This document shows positions 48,018 through 57,528 of a stretch of 61,342 bases of DNA, in pieces. Origin of the DNA: Phycisphaerales bacterium. Lineage in GTDB: Bacteria > Planctomycetota > Phycisphaerae > Sedimentisphaerales > Anaerobacaceae. The translations under genes were made by a program, and so were the position numbers. The notes beneath the pieces were generated by a model. That model ran no database searches and was not told the origin of the DNA. It was given only the letters and a program-made list of their open reading frames with translations. Every line of letters begins with the position of its first letter. Position 1 is the first letter of the stretch. The stretch is from the NCBI GenBank assembly GCA_003141315.1, contig PLLP01000014.1, forward strand, positions 44,459 to 105,800. Reading direction: 5' to 3'.

Positions 48018-48103
48018 AAGTTTGCTAAATGGGGGTTAAGTTTAGCACTTGTTTTTCAGCAAAATTGCAGTCGCAGGATTGCGAATTTTAAATGGTGGGG
48101 ACG

Positions 48104-48766
48104 ATGAAAAGAAGTAGCCTTTTATTCACTTTTATTATTTCGCTGGTCTTTATCCTGGTGCCCCCGTCGCCGGCAGGCTTCGTGCCTTATATTTCCGGCC
48201 AAAGCACCGCGACCCTAATCGAAAGCGGCGATTTCACTGGTATGTATCGTTACGATATTTCTATCAACTGGAAGACGCGTTTTGGCCTGTCCCAGATTGA
48301 TTTGCTGCTGGTAGATTTCAGCCGAAGTGCGGATTACGAAATTACTTTTTCATCGTCCGCTGCTGCCTCAACAAGCAAAATACACCACCATGACCCGCTT
48401 GCTGTCACCTGGAAGGCATACCTGGAGAGCAGCGGCCTCAGCCTTTTCGGCGAGGATGACCCGTATATTAAATACGCACCTTCAGACAGGTGGCATTCTT
48501 TCTGGTCGTATTTTTTGATGCCCGGCAGAACAGGTTTCGGAACGTTTTCGTTTTATTCCGATATCGCGCCTGAATACGGCACATTGGATGATATCCTTGT
48601 TGCACAGACAGGCCGCCACCAGAAAATCTATGGCGATTTATCCGGAGCGTTTCCGATTGTCTCTTCCGGCACAGGTGGAGGCACAGGCGGAAGCACGCCT
48701 GAACCTGCCACAATCACACTGCTCGGCCTCGGCAGCTGCTTTATCCTCACCAGGAAAAAAAGATAA
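48104..48766 (+). CDS. Secreted PEP-CTERM protein
   Basis: About 220 residues. ATG at 48104 is used because GGTGGGGA lies just upstream; the earlier ATG overlaps that site. Signal peptide MKRSSLLFTFIISLVFILVPPSPAG. The middle is a beta-rich domain without clear family (FGLSQIDLLLVDFSRSADYEI). After a Gly/Thr spacer (SGTGGGTGGS) the C-terminus is TPEPATITLLGLGSCFILTRKKR: PEP motif, hydrophobic helix and basic tail, the exosortase-type sorting signal. It is probably exported and processed by an exosortase, which is not in the window. Confidence 0.88.
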   Translation: MKRSSLLFTFIISLVFILVPPSPAGFVPYISGQSTATLIESGDFTGMYRYDISINWKTRFGLSQIDLLLVDFSRSADYEITFSSSAAASTSKIHHHDPLAVTWKAYLESSGLSLFGEDDPYIKYAPSDRWHSFWSYFLMPGRTGFGTFSFYSDIAPEYGTLDDILVAQTGRHQKIYGDLSGAFPIVSSGTGGGTGGSTPEPATITLLGLGSCFILTRKKR

Positions 48767-50812: not shown

Positions 50813-51397
50813 ATGCGAATAATAGCAGGCACCAAACGTGGAATGAAACTGTTCAGCCCCGAGACCGACCTGTCTCGGCCTATCCTCGACAGGGTCAAGC
50901 AATCTCTCTTCGATTGCCTGCAAAAATATAATGCCCCCGCTGGCAAACTCGTCGCAGACCTCTTTAGCGGCGTCGGTTCGCTCGGCCTCGAATCCATCAG
51001 CAGGGGGGCAGAGTCCGCAGCCTTTGTCGAAAGAGACCCCAAAACCGCTGCCATCCTTAAGCAGAACATCGCAAAGGCAGGCTTTTATAATCAATCAAAG
51101 GTTTTAATCGCCGACGCATTCAAGACAGGCGCCGCTCTTGTCCCCGGCAAGCCGAAATACGACCTTGTCTTTGTTGACCCGCCTTATATCCGAACGAACG
51201 ATGTCGGCGCCGATTCGGATTTAGCGGGCCTTATGAAAATTTTAGTTGACCAGACCGCTGACAATGCTTTAGTTATTGTTAGAACTTACAAGGATATCGA
51301 ACTGCCCGATATTTATGCCGGCTTCAAAATAATTGACCGGCGCCAGTGGGGCAGTATGGCTGTGACTTTTTTAATGCGGTCGAAAAATGAACAATAA
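50813..51397 (+). CDS. rsmD: 16S rRNA (guanine966-N2)-methyltransferase
   Basis: 194 residues. N-terminal MRIIAGTKRGMKLFSP and RPILDRVKQSLFDCLQ are RsmD hallmarks. SAM-binding VADLFSGVGSLGLESISRGA, AAFVERD and catalytic DPPYIR (N6/N2-methylase motif IV) follow. It modifies G966 of 16S rRNA in the P-site area. The 116-base spacer before it includes another stuttering patch (CTCTGTGAACTCTGTGG). It overlaps cca by 11 bases, so the two are translationally linked. Confidence 0.95.
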   Translation: MRIIAGTKRGMKLFSPETDLSRPILDRVKQSLFDCLQKYNAPAGKLVADLFSGVGSLGLESISRGAESAAFVERDPKTAAILKQNIAKAGFYNQSKVLIADAFKTGAALVPGKPKYDLVFVDPPYIRTNDVGADSDLAGLMKILVDQTADNALVIVRTYKDIELPDIYAGFKIIDRRQWGSMAVTFLMRSKNEQ

Positions 51398-52592
51398 AGA
51401 TGCTGCGATAAAAATTGTTAAAGTGCTTCGTCGAAACGGCTACCAGACACTGCTCGCCGGCGGCTGCGTCCGCGATATGCTTCTGCACAGGCTTGCAAAG
51501 GATTACGACGTCGCCACCAATGCCCAGCCGAAAGAAATCATAAGACTTTTTGACCGCACGCTCAAGGTCGGCGCAAAATTCGGTGTTGTTATTGTCCTGC
51601 TCGATGATACGCAGGTCGAGGTTGCCACATTCAGGGCGGAGGCGGATTATTCGGATGGCAGGCATCCGCAAAAAGTTTCTTTTACCAATGCTGCCAATGA
51701 TGCCGCCCGGCGGGATTTCACAATCAACGGTATGTTTTATGACCCTGTTGAAAAAAAGATTATCGATTTTGTCGGCGGCAGGGTGGACCTTAAAAAGAAA
51801 ATCATTCGAACTATAGGCCGGCCCGAAGAGCGGTTCGGCGAGGATTACCTGCGAATGCTGCGGGCGATAAGGTTCTCTGCTCAGCTCGGTTTTAAAATTG
51901 ATTCGAAAACTTATGCTGCGATTCGCAAGAACGCATCCAGCATAACCAAAATCAGCGGCGAACGCATTGCCGCAGAACTCGAAGGCATCCTCACCGGTTA
52001 TAATAAAGCCGATGGTGTATCTAATTTGCTTAAAAGCGGTCTGGCAAAAGCCATTTTTCCGGATTTTCCTGTGAAGCAAATAAAAACCGCAATTAAAGTC
52101 TTGTCCCGATTGCCCCGTGATATTAGTTTTCCGCTTGGCCTGTCCGCCTTGTTCGCAGATTGCACCACTGCCTTCGCAATGAAAAAAATATCCGTCCTGA
52201 AGCTCAGCAGAAACCAGGCGAAGCATATAAAATTTCTCCTCGATAGCCGCGGCAGATTGCTCGATGAGGATATGGCGCTTGCGGAATTTAAAATGCTTCT
52301 TACGGAACCGCACTTTCACGATTTGTATGATTTCCAGATGGCCATCCTCAAGGCCGCCGGAAAATCAATAAACCTGCTTGTGAAATTTAATAAAAGGATA
52401 AAAAAACTCGGTAATATCGAGTTGAAGCCGAAACCTTTGCTTGACGGCCACGAACTTATCGGTTTAGGCGCATTGCCGGGGCCTGATTTGGGCAGGCTCG
52501 CAAGACAGTTATATATCGCCCAGCTCAATCTGGAAATTCATACGAAAGAAGACGCAGAACAATGGGTGCGGAACCGGCTGAATAAAAATTGA
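51387..52592 (+). CDS. cca: CCA tRNA nucleotidyltransferase (class II)
   Basis: Adds or repairs the 3' CCA end of tRNA (poly(A) polymerases share the fold). 401 residues: LLAGGCVRDMLLHR (motif A), KDYDVATNAQP with the catalytic DxD, VEVATFRAEADYSDGRHP, RRDFTINGMFYDP (motif B/C), GRPEERFGEDYLRMLRAIRFSAQLGF (motif D with the EDYLRxxRxxRF signature). The C-terminal part is helical. Since both tRNA genes in this window lack CCA, the CCA-adding role is likely. It overlaps rsmD; the sulfatase-like gene follows at 30 bases. Confidence 0.92.
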   Translation: MNNKDAAIKIVKVLRRNGYQTLLAGGCVRDMLLHRLAKDYDVATNAQPKEIIRLFDRTLKVGAKFGVVIVLLDDTQVEVATFRAEADYSDGRHPQKVSFTNAANDAARRDFTINGMFYDPVEKKIIDFVGGRVDLKKKIIRTIGRPEERFGEDYLRMLRAIRFSAQLGFKIDSKTYAAIRKNASSITKISGERIAAELEGILTGYNKADGVSNLLKSGLAKAIFPDFPVKQIKTAIKVLSRLPRDISFPLGLSALFADCTTAFAMKKISVLKLSRNQAKHIKFLLDSRGRLLDEDMALAEFKMLLTEPHFHDLYDFQMAILKAAGKSINLLVKFNKRIKKLGNIELKPKPLLDGHELIGLGALPGPDLGRLARQLYIAQLNLEIHTKEDAEQWVRNRLNKN

Positions 52593-52621: not shown

Positions 52622-54118
52622 ATGGCGGGATTGACAAGAGGATATTTTTTGAAGGCAGCGGTTATTGGTATTGCTGCCGTAAGTATTCTTGGATGCGGCA
52701 GGCTGATGACGGTTGACAGGTCTCAGCGCAGTTCGCAGCCGAATATTCTCTTTATTGTTGTTGACGGCCTCAACGATTGCACGGGGTGTCTGGGCGGGAA
52801 ACCGCAGGCCAAAACTCCAAATATCGACAGCCTCGCAAAACGGGGGACGCTCTTTACCAATGCCTACTGTGCCGCCTGTGGAAGTCTTAACTCGCGGCTA
52901 ATCGTCCTTACCGGTCTTTGGGCAGGCGAAGATGGAGAGAAATCATATCGCTGGGCCAATGCTATTACATACTGGAGAACCCAATCGCCTGTTCTTAAAA
53001 AAGTATTAACAATTCCGGAGTATTTCAAAGCAAACGGCTATGAAGTAATCGGCAGCGGGAAAATATTTTCCGGCAATTTATGGAAGAATGAAAATGGATG
53101 GTATAGAAACCAGAACGATTTTACTATTTGGGATTCGTATTTTCCTCCGAAAGCAAAATCTGTCCTCGATTTCTTTCTGCCTTCGGCTGTAGTTGACAAT
53201 AATGGCACAGTTTCCTGGCAGCCCGCACCAAACGGCCCAAAACATTTAGTGCATCCTTCTGATTTTGACTGGGCGGCGATAGATTATCCTGATAGCCGAA
53301 CAGCAGATTATAAAATCGTAAGCTGGACAATTGACGAGCTTAGAAAAAATCATAAAAAACCGTTCTTTCTTGCTGTCGGCCTTTCCGCATCGGAGGTTTC
53401 CTGGTTTATTCCGAAAGAATATTTCGAGATGTATCCGCTCGACCATGTACAACTGCCGCCTATTGTTCAAAATGACATCAACGACATCCCGCCGGGTGTC
53501 AGAGAATTTGTACCGGATGAATCTTACAAGCAGATTGTTAAAAATAATCTATTGAAAAATGCCGTTCAGGCATACCTTGCCGGTACAACCTATATCGATG
53601 CACAGGTGGGAAGACTCATCGACGCCCTTGACAAAAGCCGCTATGCCGAAAACACCATAATCGTGCTTTTGTCCGACCGCGGTTTTCTTCTCGGCCAGAA
53701 GGAGCATTGGGGCGATGCTGCTCTTTGGGGAAAATCTACACATGTGCCTCTGATTATAATTGCTCCAAGTGCAGGCAAACCCTACAGCCGCTGCTCAAGA
53801 GCCGTGAGCCTGATTGATATTTACCCGACATTGATTGATTTGTGCAAGATGAAACCGCAGGCAAACCTTGCCGGTGAAAGCCTCGTGCCGCTGCTTAGTA
53901 ATCCGCAGGCACATAGAGAAACGCCTGCTATAACAATCTGTGGAGATATTATCCATTCTGTTCGCACAGAAAGATGGAGTTATATTAAATATCGCGATGG
54001 TTCGGAGGAGCTTTATGACCACCAGGCTGACCCGTGCGAGTTTACAAACCTTGCCGGCCGGCCGGAATATGACCATATTAAACTCGAACTTTTTGCCTGG
54101 ATTCCGGAAAATAAGTAA
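52622..54118 (+). CDS. Sulfatase-fold lipoprotein that has lost catalytic residues (pseudosulfatase)
   Basis: About 498 residues; ATG at 52622 is preferred to TTG at 52589. Lipoprotein signal ending SILGC. The body matches iduronate-2-sulfatase-type sulfatases end to end: NILFIVVDGLND, AKTPNIDSLAKRGTLFTNAYC, LTGLWAGE, PFFLAVGL, YPTLIDLC, YDHQADPCEFTNLA. But the catalytic places differ: the formylglycine motif CxPSR region reads CGSLNSR, so no Cys aligns at the modified position; the metal Asp pair DD is DG; SGKIF is followed by Ser not His; the RPHxPW region reads SASEVSW; and DHG reads DRG. It is therefore probably catalytically dead, perhaps a ligand-binding surface lipoprotein. Confidence 0.85.
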   Translation: MAGLTRGYFLKAAVIGIAAVSILGCGRLMTVDRSQRSSQPNILFIVVDGLNDCTGCLGGKPQAKTPNIDSLAKRGTLFTNAYCAACGSLNSRLIVLTGLWAGEDGEKSYRWANAITYWRTQSPVLKKVLTIPEYFKANGYEVIGSGKIFSGNLWKNENGWYRNQNDFTIWDSYFPPKAKSVLDFFLPSAVVDNNGTVSWQPAPNGPKHLVHPSDFDWAAIDYPDSRTADYKIVSWTIDELRKNHKKPFFLAVGLSASEVSWFIPKEYFEMYPLDHVQLPPIVQNDINDIPPGVREFVPDESYKQIVKNNLLKNAVQAYLAGTTYIDAQVGRLIDALDKSRYAENTIIVLLSDRGFLLGQKEHWGDAALWGKSTHVPLIIIAPSAGKPYSRCSRAVSLIDIYPTLIDLCKMKPQANLAGESLVPLLSNPQAHRETPAITICGDIIHSVRTERWSYIKYRDGSEELYDHQADPCEFTNLAGRPEYDHIKLELFAWIPENK

Positions 54119-54442: not shown

Positions 54443-56254
54443 ATGCTCAATAGAACCGCTAAACTCGTCCTGATAATTATCGTTATGCTTCCCTTTATGG
54501 CTTTGGCCGAGACGGCTGACCAAAATGATGTGACGAACAATTTCAATGACCTGCTTCATTATCTTACTATAGGCAGGCTCGACCTTTCAAAGGCTTATGC
54601 GACGCGTATCCTCGAAGGCAATCCCGACCCTGTCCTGCTGTTCAGCATCTCCGGCGAAAATCCGCAAAGTTATACTGTTTTGCAGAGGGCCAAAGATAAT
54701 AAATTTGATACGCAATTATCCGATTTGTGCGGCAAGGTTCTCGCCACCATTGATAAGGGCAGATTTATTCGCCGCCAGGACCCGAAGGTTATCCTCGAAG
54801 AAGTAAAGCGTCTCAGCACTACGCCGCGCGGGCAGCTTGCCGCAGTCAAAAGACTTCAGGATGCCGGCGAATATTCGATAATGTTTATGCTCGATGCCCT
54901 CACCGACCCCGCACGCAAGGATGAATGGCCTAATATCGTTATAGCCCTTCCTAAAATCGGCAGAGACGCCATCAGGCCTCTCGTCGCCGCTCTGCAGACT
55001 GATGATGTATCCACAAAAACCGCAATTATCGAATCCCTCGCTAAAATGGAATACCCGCAGACTTTGGCTTACCTCAAATACATCCTCGAAACCGAAAAAT
55101 CAGAACAGATTCGCCAGATAGCAGCCGAGGGCATCCAGAAAATTGACGCATCAGCATTGACGCTTCCTTCGGCCCAGCTTTTTTATAACCTTGCTGAAAA
55201 TTATTATTATCGTGCCGATTCCGTTGCCCCCGCTGCCGATGCGAACATTGCGAACATCTGGTTCTGGAATGCCGAAAAAAAGAGCCTCGAAAGGGTTGAG
55301 GTTGACAAGGGTTATTTCTTCGAGCTGATGACGATGCGATGCTGCGAGTGGTCATTGAAGGCAGATAGCTCTTACGGCGAGGCGATAGGGCTTTGGCTTG
55401 CCGCCTTCTTTAAGGCGGAATCTACAGGCGTTGCGATGCCGGCTTATTTCGGCCAGGCTCATCCCGATGCCTTTACCTATGCCATTACCGCAGGCCCGGA
55501 ATATCTCCATCAGGCTCTTGAACGGGCGCTGAGGGATAAGGATTCTCATGTAGCCCTTGCTGCCATCGAAGGCCTGGCAAAAACCGCAGGTGAAAAATCT
55601 ATTGTCTACCGGCTCGGTATCGTTCAGCCTTTGATGCAGGCGCTTTCCTATGATGATAAAGCGGTAAGATATAGCGCCGCCATCGCCATTGCCACCGCAG
55701 GGCCGACACAAACATTTTCCGAAAGCTCCCTCGTAATTCAAAATCTCGCCGAAGCCATCAGCCGGCAGGATGCAAATGATTCAAATAGTCAGCCTAATCA
55801 AAAATTAGATAGCAAGCTGGCGGATGATTACGCCATTCGAAGTCTTGAAGTTATGCTCAAACTTGGCCAGACAAAAAATCCTGTTATAAATTTATCCGCG
55901 GCGCAGCCGGAGCTGATAAAAGCGACAAGAGACAGCCGAATACCTGTTCGGATTCTTGCAGGCCAGGTTCTCGCATACATAAACAGCCCCAACGCCCAGC
56001 GAGCTATCGTTGCTATGGGTCTTCATACCGCAAATCAATTAGATGTCCGCATCGCTGCCTTCAATTCACTCGCTGCTTCTGCAAAGCTTAGCGGCAATCT
56101 TTTGGAGGGCGATTTTGTCGATGCCGTTTTTTCTCTGATAAGCTCGCCGCAAACACCTCCGGAGTTGAAGACCGCAGCCGCTGCCGCCTACGGCGCATTG
56201 AACCTGCCAAGCAAAAAGGTTAAAGACCTGATTCTCAATCAGTCAAAAAGCTGA
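54443..56254 (+). CDS. Secreted HEAT-repeat protein
   Basis: 603 residues. Signal peptide MLNRTAKLVLIIIVMLPFMALAE. Helical repeats of HEAT/PBS-lyase type cover most of the rest, e.g. PNIVIALPKIGRDAIRPLVAALQ, IIESLAKMEYPQTLAYLKYIL, ALAAIEGLAKTAGE, DDKAVRYSAAIAIATAGPTQ, DSRIPVRILAGQVLAYINSPN. Two short stretches (residues 30-70, 255-300) are non-repeat. It is probably a periplasmic scaffold; no enzyme motif is seen. GGGAGAAG 7 bases before ATG comes from a dispersed repeat. The closest homologues are expected among planctomycete hypothetical proteins (inference). Confidence 0.8.
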   Translation: MLNRTAKLVLIIIVMLPFMALAETADQNDVTNNFNDLLHYLTIGRLDLSKAYATRILEGNPDPVLLFSISGENPQSYTVLQRAKDNKFDTQLSDLCGKVLATIDKGRFIRRQDPKVILEEVKRLSTTPRGQLAAVKRLQDAGEYSIMFMLDALTDPARKDEWPNIVIALPKIGRDAIRPLVAALQTDDVSTKTAIIESLAKMEYPQTLAYLKYILETEKSEQIRQIAAEGIQKIDASALTLPSAQLFYNLAENYYYRADSVAPAADANIANIWFWNAEKKSLERVEVDKGYFFELMTMRCCEWSLKADSSYGEAIGLWLAAFFKAESTGVAMPAYFGQAHPDAFTYAITAGPEYLHQALERALRDKDSHVALAAIEGLAKTAGEKSIVYRLGIVQPLMQALSYDDKAVRYSAAIAIATAGPTQTFSESSLVIQNLAEAISRQDANDSNSQPNQKLDSKLADDYAIRSLEVMLKLGQTKNPVINLSAAQPELIKATRDSRIPVRILAGQVLAYINSPNAQRAIVAMGLHTANQLDVRIAAFNSLAASAKLSGNLLEGDFVDAVFSLISSPQTPPELKTAAAAAYGALNLPSKKVKDLILNQSKS

Positions 56255-56322: not shown

Positions 56323-57171
56323 TTAGCGTTTTCTTTTCAACATCACCGCACCGAGGCCGAGAAGTAAAATCGTAGCTGGTTCAGGAACAGGCTGCACTGC
56401 GATATACATTGGGTAATTCAAGCCCGATGCAAAGACAGACCTGTTCCCACTCGGATCGAATTTATAAATCATCCCGGTGCCCGGATCGTAGCCTTCATCG
56501 GCAACATAGAGATTTCCGATACTATCGAACGCGAGACCCGTAGGGCATCCAAAACCCGAGGCGAAGACAGACCCCTTTCCACTTGGGTCGAATTTATCAA
56601 TCGTCCCGCTGTCAAAATTGGAAACGTAGAGATTTCCGATACTGTCGAACGCAAGCCCTAAAGCATTAATGTTCAAAGCAACAGACATGTTTCCCCTTGG
56701 ATCAAACTTATCAATCGTCCCCCTGTCAACATTGGCAACGTAGAGATTGTCGCTTTTGTCGAACGCAAGCGCAAAAACAATATCTTCGTTTGATGTGAAG
56801 ATAGACTTGTTTCCACTTGGGTCGAATTTATCAATCGTCCCGTGGCCATTATCAACAACATAGAGATTCCCGACGCTGTCGAACGCGAGACCCATAGGGA
56901 ATTCAACACTCCCGAAGATAAACCTGTTTCCACTTGGATCGAATTTTTCAATCGTCCCTCTGCTAAAATCGTCAACATAGAGATTTCCGATGCTGTCGAA
57001 TGCGAGACCCATAGGGAATTCAAAACCCGACGCGAAGACAGACCTGTTTCCACTCGAATCAAATTTCTCAATCGTCGAGTCACACGGGACGTAAATGAAA
57101 TCGGCATACGCGAATGAATTGGTCAGTAAGACAAGCACAACCACAGCACAAATTGTAATTAACCTTTTCAT
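56323..57171 (-). CDS. PEP-CTERM protein with six NHL-like repeats (beta-propeller)
   Basis: 282 residues from ATG at 57171, with GAGAGGAAAG upstream; the earlier frame start is not used. Signal peptide MKRLITICAVVVLVLLTNSFAYA. Six units of about 40 residues follow, each with a GLAFDSIGNLYVxD strand pair, then GTIDKFDPSGN and SVFASGF. Six such blades would make an NHL-like beta-propeller. The units are close to identical in DNA, suggesting recent duplication. The C-terminus is VPEPATILLLGLGAVMLKRKR, a PEP-CTERM sorting signal. It is likely surface-exposed or secreted and possibly ligand-binding. Confidence 0.87.
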   Translation of the reverse strand: MKRLITICAVVVLVLLTNSFAYADFIYVPCDSTIEKFDSSGNRSVFASGFEFPMGLAFDSIGNLYVDDFSRGTIEKFDPSGNRFIFGSVEFPMGLAFDSVGNLYVVDNGHGTIDKFDPSGNKSIFTSNEDIVFALAFDKSDNLYVANVDRGTIDKFDPRGNMSVALNINALGLAFDSIGNLYVSNFDSGTIDKFDPSGKGSVFASGFGCPTGLAFDSIGNLYVADEGYDPGTGMIYKFDPSGNRSVFASGLNYPMYIAVQPVPEPATILLLGLGAVMLKRKR

Positions 57172-57528
57172 CTTTCCTCTCCTCAAAAAAAATAAAATGG
57201 CTGAATCATAAATAAACTTTTTGCATCCTGATGTACATAGGTATTGATTCTGACAAAAGGAATGAACCAATAAAAGGCAAAATTACTATCTCTTCTCATC
57301 TCATCACGCTCCACACTTTTTTCAGACAAATTGTGCCTGAAAAAACCGCTATTATTATAGGCTTTCCGCTGGTGAATTTCAAGGAAAAAAAGGACTAAAT
57401 ATTACCTTTTTAGGCCATTTTTCGTTAATATGTCAACTGTATTGAAATTAAATCGGGTTACTGGTTAGCTATGGCAAGCGGTTCAGGCAGGGCGGGAGGC
57501 CATGCTTGTGTTGCAGAGGCGGTAAATG
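57172..57528. other. Gene-free stretch between the propeller gene and cvpA
   Basis: Contains a perfect inverted repeat TTTTTTCAG (57317-57325)/CTGAAAAAA (57337-57345); CTGGTTAGCTATGG (57461-57474), repeated exactly at 10979-10992; and a possible minus-strand promoter with TTGACA at 57436-57431. The region 57460-57520 is G-rich (GGCAGGGCGGGAGGCC). No gene is seen. Confidence 0.55.

Follow-up and report, generated by a model that had tools for sequence, protein, structure and literature searches.

A putative S1_7 pseudo-sulfatase, probably orphaned of its maturases, in a Phycisphaerales genome

Introduction

Pseudoenzymes occur across many enzyme families, and a search of the literature on pseudoenzymes, inactive sulfatases and pseudosulfatases yielded no described formylglycine (FGly) sulfatase pseudoenzyme with a retained fold. 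The closest systems are the following. The authors of SulfAtlas considered that nine FGly-sulfatase sequences from Planctomycetes and Lentisphaerae may be inactive, having lost Arg55 (PMC5066984). YejM/PbgA/LapC has a periplasmic arylsulfatase-type domain that was judged to be without properly placed catalytic residues, with a role in sensing/regulation (PMC7773988), and the title of a further paper describes YejM as a metalloenzyme (PMC7576196). As for the S1_7 sulfatases themselves, human iduronate-2-sulfatase (IDS) contacts a sulfate oxygen through H229 and the formylglycine hydroxyl through H138, and K347 contributes a positive charge to the catalytic core (PMC5472762).

Here, we describe a gene (52622..54118, + strand) in the window, that is, the whole 61,342-nucleotide stretch of Phycisphaerales contig PLLP01000014.1 that was analysed, whose product (498 aa plus stop) has an alkaline-phosphatase/sulfatase fold and is S1_7-like by descent, yet fails four defining features of a functional FGly sulfatase. 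It shares with S1_7 enzymes (5fql, 6hhm) the whole-length fold, the order of the motifs and residues D48, R92, K147 and D352, but lacks the FGly Cys, the P/A at +2, D49, H150, H258, H353 and K365; it also differs in a segment after the K-x-x-H motif that is longer than in its close homologues and in a genome without a maturase match. Like the SulfAtlas sequences, it comes from the same group of phyla and its inactivity is proposed from the loss of catalytic residues, but the nine lack one residue (Arg55), whereas the window protein keeps the Arg and is changed at seven other positions. Its likeness to YejM/PbgA/LapC, which is among the fold matches of its model (Z ~32), is that of a putative envelope protein with a sulfatase-type fold, although YejM/PbgA/LapC is an integral membrane LtaS-like protein and the window protein an S1_7 putative lipoprotein. 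We propose that it is probably an S1_7 pseudo-sulfatase orphaned of its maturases, which the lineage has kept as a non-catalytic protein anchored in the envelope, for binding or scaffolding.

A sulfatase fold with a dismantled active site

The frame runs uninterrupted from the ATG at 52622 to the stop at 54118 (an alternative TTG start at 52589 would add 11 aa at the N-terminus). Pfam Sulfatase matches the product at 5e-34 (118 bits) and SGSH_C at 1e-13, among solved structures the sequence matches the S1_7 ulvan sulfatase 6hhm (3e-39) and IDS (6e-36), and no curated family closer than the generic sulfatase scored above cut-off. In its AlphaFold model (pLDDT 83.3, pTM 0.86), the predicted protein is a full sulfatase fold over its whole length, whose best solved match is the ulvan sulfatase FA22070 (6hhm; Z 42.2, 414 residues, rmsd 2.7), and which also matches IDS (5fql; Z 37.3, 406 residues aligned). 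This agrees with a preliminary description of the locus, according to which sulfatase landmarks run along the whole length. When compared to a control model built for L114, its closest active homologue (pLDDT 89.4), confidence is lower at residues 103-112, 156-162 and 188-213, and these low-confidence stretches come after what was the FGly helix and after the K-x-x-H motif. Alignment and model together define a remodelled segment (residues 152-213; 53075..53260, + strand), with pLDDT below 50 at 156-162, 188-192, 194-198 and 200-213, which is contained in a region (residues 141-232) of 92 aa that exceeds its counterpart in the closest active homologues (67 aa) by 25 residues.

The active site was scored in an alignment with 121 homologues, taken from related genomes and GTDB contigs, at eleven positions corresponding to the ten active-site residues of the IDS structure paper (PMC5472762) plus the Pro of CxPSR. 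Each position is conserved in 97-100% of the homologues, which read DDCPRKHHDHK, while the window protein reads DGSNRKSEDRD (D48, G49, S88, N90, R92, K147, S150, E258, D352, R353 and D365). Seven positions are replaced (D49G, C88S, P90N, H150S, H258E, H353R and K365D) and four are retained (D48, R92, K147 and D352); P to N, H to S, H to E and K to D each require at least two nucleotide changes. Along the gene (all on the + strand), the metal-ligand pair DD has become D48-G49 (52763..52768), the FGly motif C-x-P-S-R has become S88-L-N90-S-R92 (52883..52897), the K-x-x-H motif keeps K147 but has S150 for its His (53060..53071), the RPH motif shows P257S and E258 for the catalytic His (53390..53395), the metal-ligand pair DH has become D352-R353 (53675..53680) and the active-site Lys (IDS K347) is D365 (53714..53716). 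Two of the four metal ligands (D, D, D and N/H) are therefore lost, and S150, E258 and D365 stand for the active-site His, His and Lys (H138, H229 and K347 in IDS).

The preliminary description had read several of these places as changed (DD to DG, His to Ser, the loss of RPH, DH to DR), and the 121 homologues bear it out. For the formylglycine region, quoted there as CGSLNSR, the Cys place is indeed changed, but in ACGSLNSR it is Ser88 (codon 52883-52885), rather than Cys86, that aligns with the formylglycine Cys. The [C/S]-x-[P/A]-x-R maturation motif is absent, since S-L-N-S-R has Asn at the P/A position, where Pro is found in 120 of the 121 homologues and Ala in the remaining one. Cys86 was considered as the nucleophile and rejected, because positions 88 and 90 would then have to be P/A and R, whereas they are S and N. 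Sequencing or assembly error is an unlikely source of seven scattered changes, four of them needing two nucleotides or more, in an intact frame, and the genes on either side of this one are the family's own neighbours.

Without a usable FGly motif, with two metal ligands of four gone together with one Lys and both catalytic His, and with no maturase found in the genome, the protein should not, judging from its sequence, work as a formylglycine sulfatase, and its earlier characterisation as a dead sulfatase holds. Catalytic residues are missing and the predicted fold is retained, as expected of a pseudoenzyme; the gene should not carry a sulfatase annotation, or count toward sulfated-polysaccharide capacity.

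The N-terminal signal (MAGLTRGYFLKAAVIGIAAVSILGC; 52622..52696, + strand) contains by reading a putative lipobox, SILGC, and a Tat motif altered from the RRxFLK of relatives to RGYFLK. The lipobox had been presented as clean; it is plausible, but by comparison of the sequences it looks ancestral, since many close active homologues carry LPGC, and the element that appears to have changed is the Tat motif. The protein is presumably exported as a lipoprotein. PEP-CTERM-like C-terminal signals are found near the gene, at 48092-48766 (by reading) and 56323-57270 (by Pfam PEP-CTERM).

Genomic slot and maturases

The gene occupies a slot bordered on the left by cca (tRNA nucleotidyltransferase/polyA polymerase family; 51387..52592, + strand), 29 bp upstream, and on the right by a gene encoding a HEAT-repeat protein (54443..56254, + strand) that is present in 79 of 89 family genomes. 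The order hisS-orf-rsmD-cca-[anSME]-HEAT is conserved in relatives, the locus of the maturase anSME lying between cca and the HEAT-repeat gene in L157, L158, L159, L161-L165 and L174-L176. In some relatives, two anSME copies flank one to four sulfatase genes in the slot, while four sulfatase-poor genomes have neither anSME nor sulfatase there. In the window, the slot contains the dead sulfatase alone, without anSME, and no anSME remnant was found (best tblastn E 0.03, far from the slot). The earlier statement that cca lies upstream with no sulfatase operon around is thus true in this genome but misleading, because the slot is an anSME locus in relatives, often with sulfatases. The HEAT-repeat protein may be linked to sulfatase maturation, or its gene may be no more than a stable neighbour.

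Two of these relatives' loci show peculiarities of their own. In L175 (1111-1749), one anSME copy is apparently split into two ORFs, next to another that is intact, which recalls a duplicate in decay. In L159 (9306-10838), a slot sulfatase reads CTPFR in place of CxPSR and has its second metal-ligand position taken by Gln, the other active-site residues being the usual ones.

At the level of the genome, a draft that is 96.6% complete and in which a maturase could therefore be missed, no anSME match scored above cut-off (the one TIGR03942 match, at 47.7 bits against a cut-off of 349, is to a radical-SAM protein), and a PF03781 profile search for the maturase FGE returned no match. anSME is present in 65 of 89 family genomes, and PF03781 has a match in 80 of 89. 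The absence of anSME is the firmer result, since PF03781 also covers proteins other than sulfatase maturases. The only other PF00884 protein in the genome is LtaS-like by reading, with hydrophobic N-terminal segments. Across the family, five or fewer first-look sulfatase candidates were seen in 15 of 21 genomes without anSME versus 1 of 68 with it (anSME presence at E<=1e-60, genomes tallied by hand).

The slot's own sulfatases are not the closest kin of the window protein, which groups with S1_7-type sulfatases encoded elsewhere in those genomes (45-48% identity, 48% being the highest of any relative found), although its exact placement is weak (support 0.58). Descent from a degenerate copy of a slot sulfatase was considered and finds no support, because in those the Cys is present, as are nearly all metal ligands (one D-to-Q, in L159), and they fall outside the window protein's group in the tree.

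Decay or retention

The rival explanation that survives best, although it is unlikely, is that of an early-stage decaying pseudogene, the last sulfatase of a genome that has lost its sulfatases and maturases, which would still be open by chance. It draws on the fact that this genome and its anSME-less relatives have shed nearly all sulfatases, and on a gene composition that is slightly off: GC3 is 0.456 versus 0.52-0.58 in seven other window genes and six of those seven have a stronger codon bias, although recent transfer or relaxation fits these values as well. However, neutral decay would hit structural positions equally, whereas among positions conserved at 95% or more the losses concentrate in the active site and motif (7 of 11 versus 2 of 50 elsewhere; Fisher p = 2.4e-5). 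The 48 other near-invariant outside positions are kept, as is the frame, which upholds the argument against random decay made in the preliminary description, and the two lost (P257 and E359) lie, in the sequence, adjacent or close to residues of the active site. Away from the active site, the consensus residue is kept at 28, 41, 51, 72 and 96% of positions by conservation class, a profile matching that of active homologues of equal overall divergence. Neutral simulation points the same way, with about 5 stops (and a probability of no stop of about 0.01) at 20% amino-acid change and about 15 stops at the 63-64% change seen at catalytic positions, against none in the gene, and the four replacements that need two or more nucleotides each also weigh against decay.

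Focused loss, preserved profile and simulated stops together indicate that the body of the protein stayed under constraint when the active site was given up, which makes random decay very unlikely; fold and frame look kept by selection. That no orthologue sharing the substitutions turned up in the genus (1 genome), the family (89), the order (161), a class sample (397) or one GTDB r220 contig scan is a point for the decaying pseudogene, and it is also why retention is read from a single sequence. The window branch is long (1.1 substitutions/site), and part of it may predate the loss of catalysis.

Proposed history and function

The maturase-orphaned pseudo-sulfatase that we favour would have arisen as follows, the order of events being the one we infer. 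The ancestor would be a Tat-exported formylglycine sulfatase of S1_7 (iduronate-2-sulfatase/ulvan-sulfatase type), in a lineage that would then have lost its sulfatase maturation system, both anSME and FGE, so that the nucleophile could no longer be converted to formylglycine. The catalytic residues would have been replaced afterwards, without loss of the folded body or the lipoprotein anchor. At present, the protein would most likely (i) bind a glycan not primarily recognised by its sulfate or (ii) scaffold a partner, using the retained fold and the remodelled segment 152-213. A bolder version of this scenario, which we put forward tentatively and hold to be possible rather than probable, is that maturase loss itself freed an FGly sulfatase to become a non-catalytic envelope protein that now sits where the lost maturase was encoded, perhaps with R353 in the former calcium site. 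If true, this would be a natural case in which the loss of a post-translational activator drives the birth of a pseudoenzyme. The case connects the loss of catalysis with that of the maturase that activates the enzyme, and with a genomic slot conserved in relatives, and it makes testable what stays once the activator is lost.

Could the protein instead be a repurposed active enzyme? Alkaline-phosphatase relatives work with an unmodified Ser/Thr nucleophile, Ser88 sits exactly at the nucleophile position and D48, D352, R92 and K147 are retained, so that a rebuilt metal/Arg site (D48, D352, R353 and K147) might act on phosphate or another ester. This is quite unlikely, considering that the protein has lost two of four metal ligands (D49G and H353R) along with the Lys at 365 and both catalytic His, and that no curated family closer than the generic sulfatase claims the product. 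As for a surface receptor for sulfated glycans, dead in catalysis but still binding sulfate, which had been suggested earlier on, it is decidedly improbable and finds no support at the old site, where anion binding would be disfavoured by Glu, Ser and Asp in place of IDS H229, H138 and K347 and where the metal site beside the sulfate has lost two ligands (a subsite that looks destroyed, not preserved), despite an S1_7 ancestry that implies an ancestral sulfated-glycan substrate, the retained K147 and R92 and the lipobox. Binding of another glycan or of a partner protein would fit these residues better.

Other observations

No Rfam match flanks the pseudo-sulfatase gene, and a promoter scan around it is uninformative (6 sites versus 4.1 expected). 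On the window's contig, about 44 kb before the window (L001, 1-690), there is a CRISPR array whose repeat, GTTTAAGGCAGCTGTATAATTTCTACTATTGTAGAT on one strand, ends like a Cas12a (type V-A) repeat.
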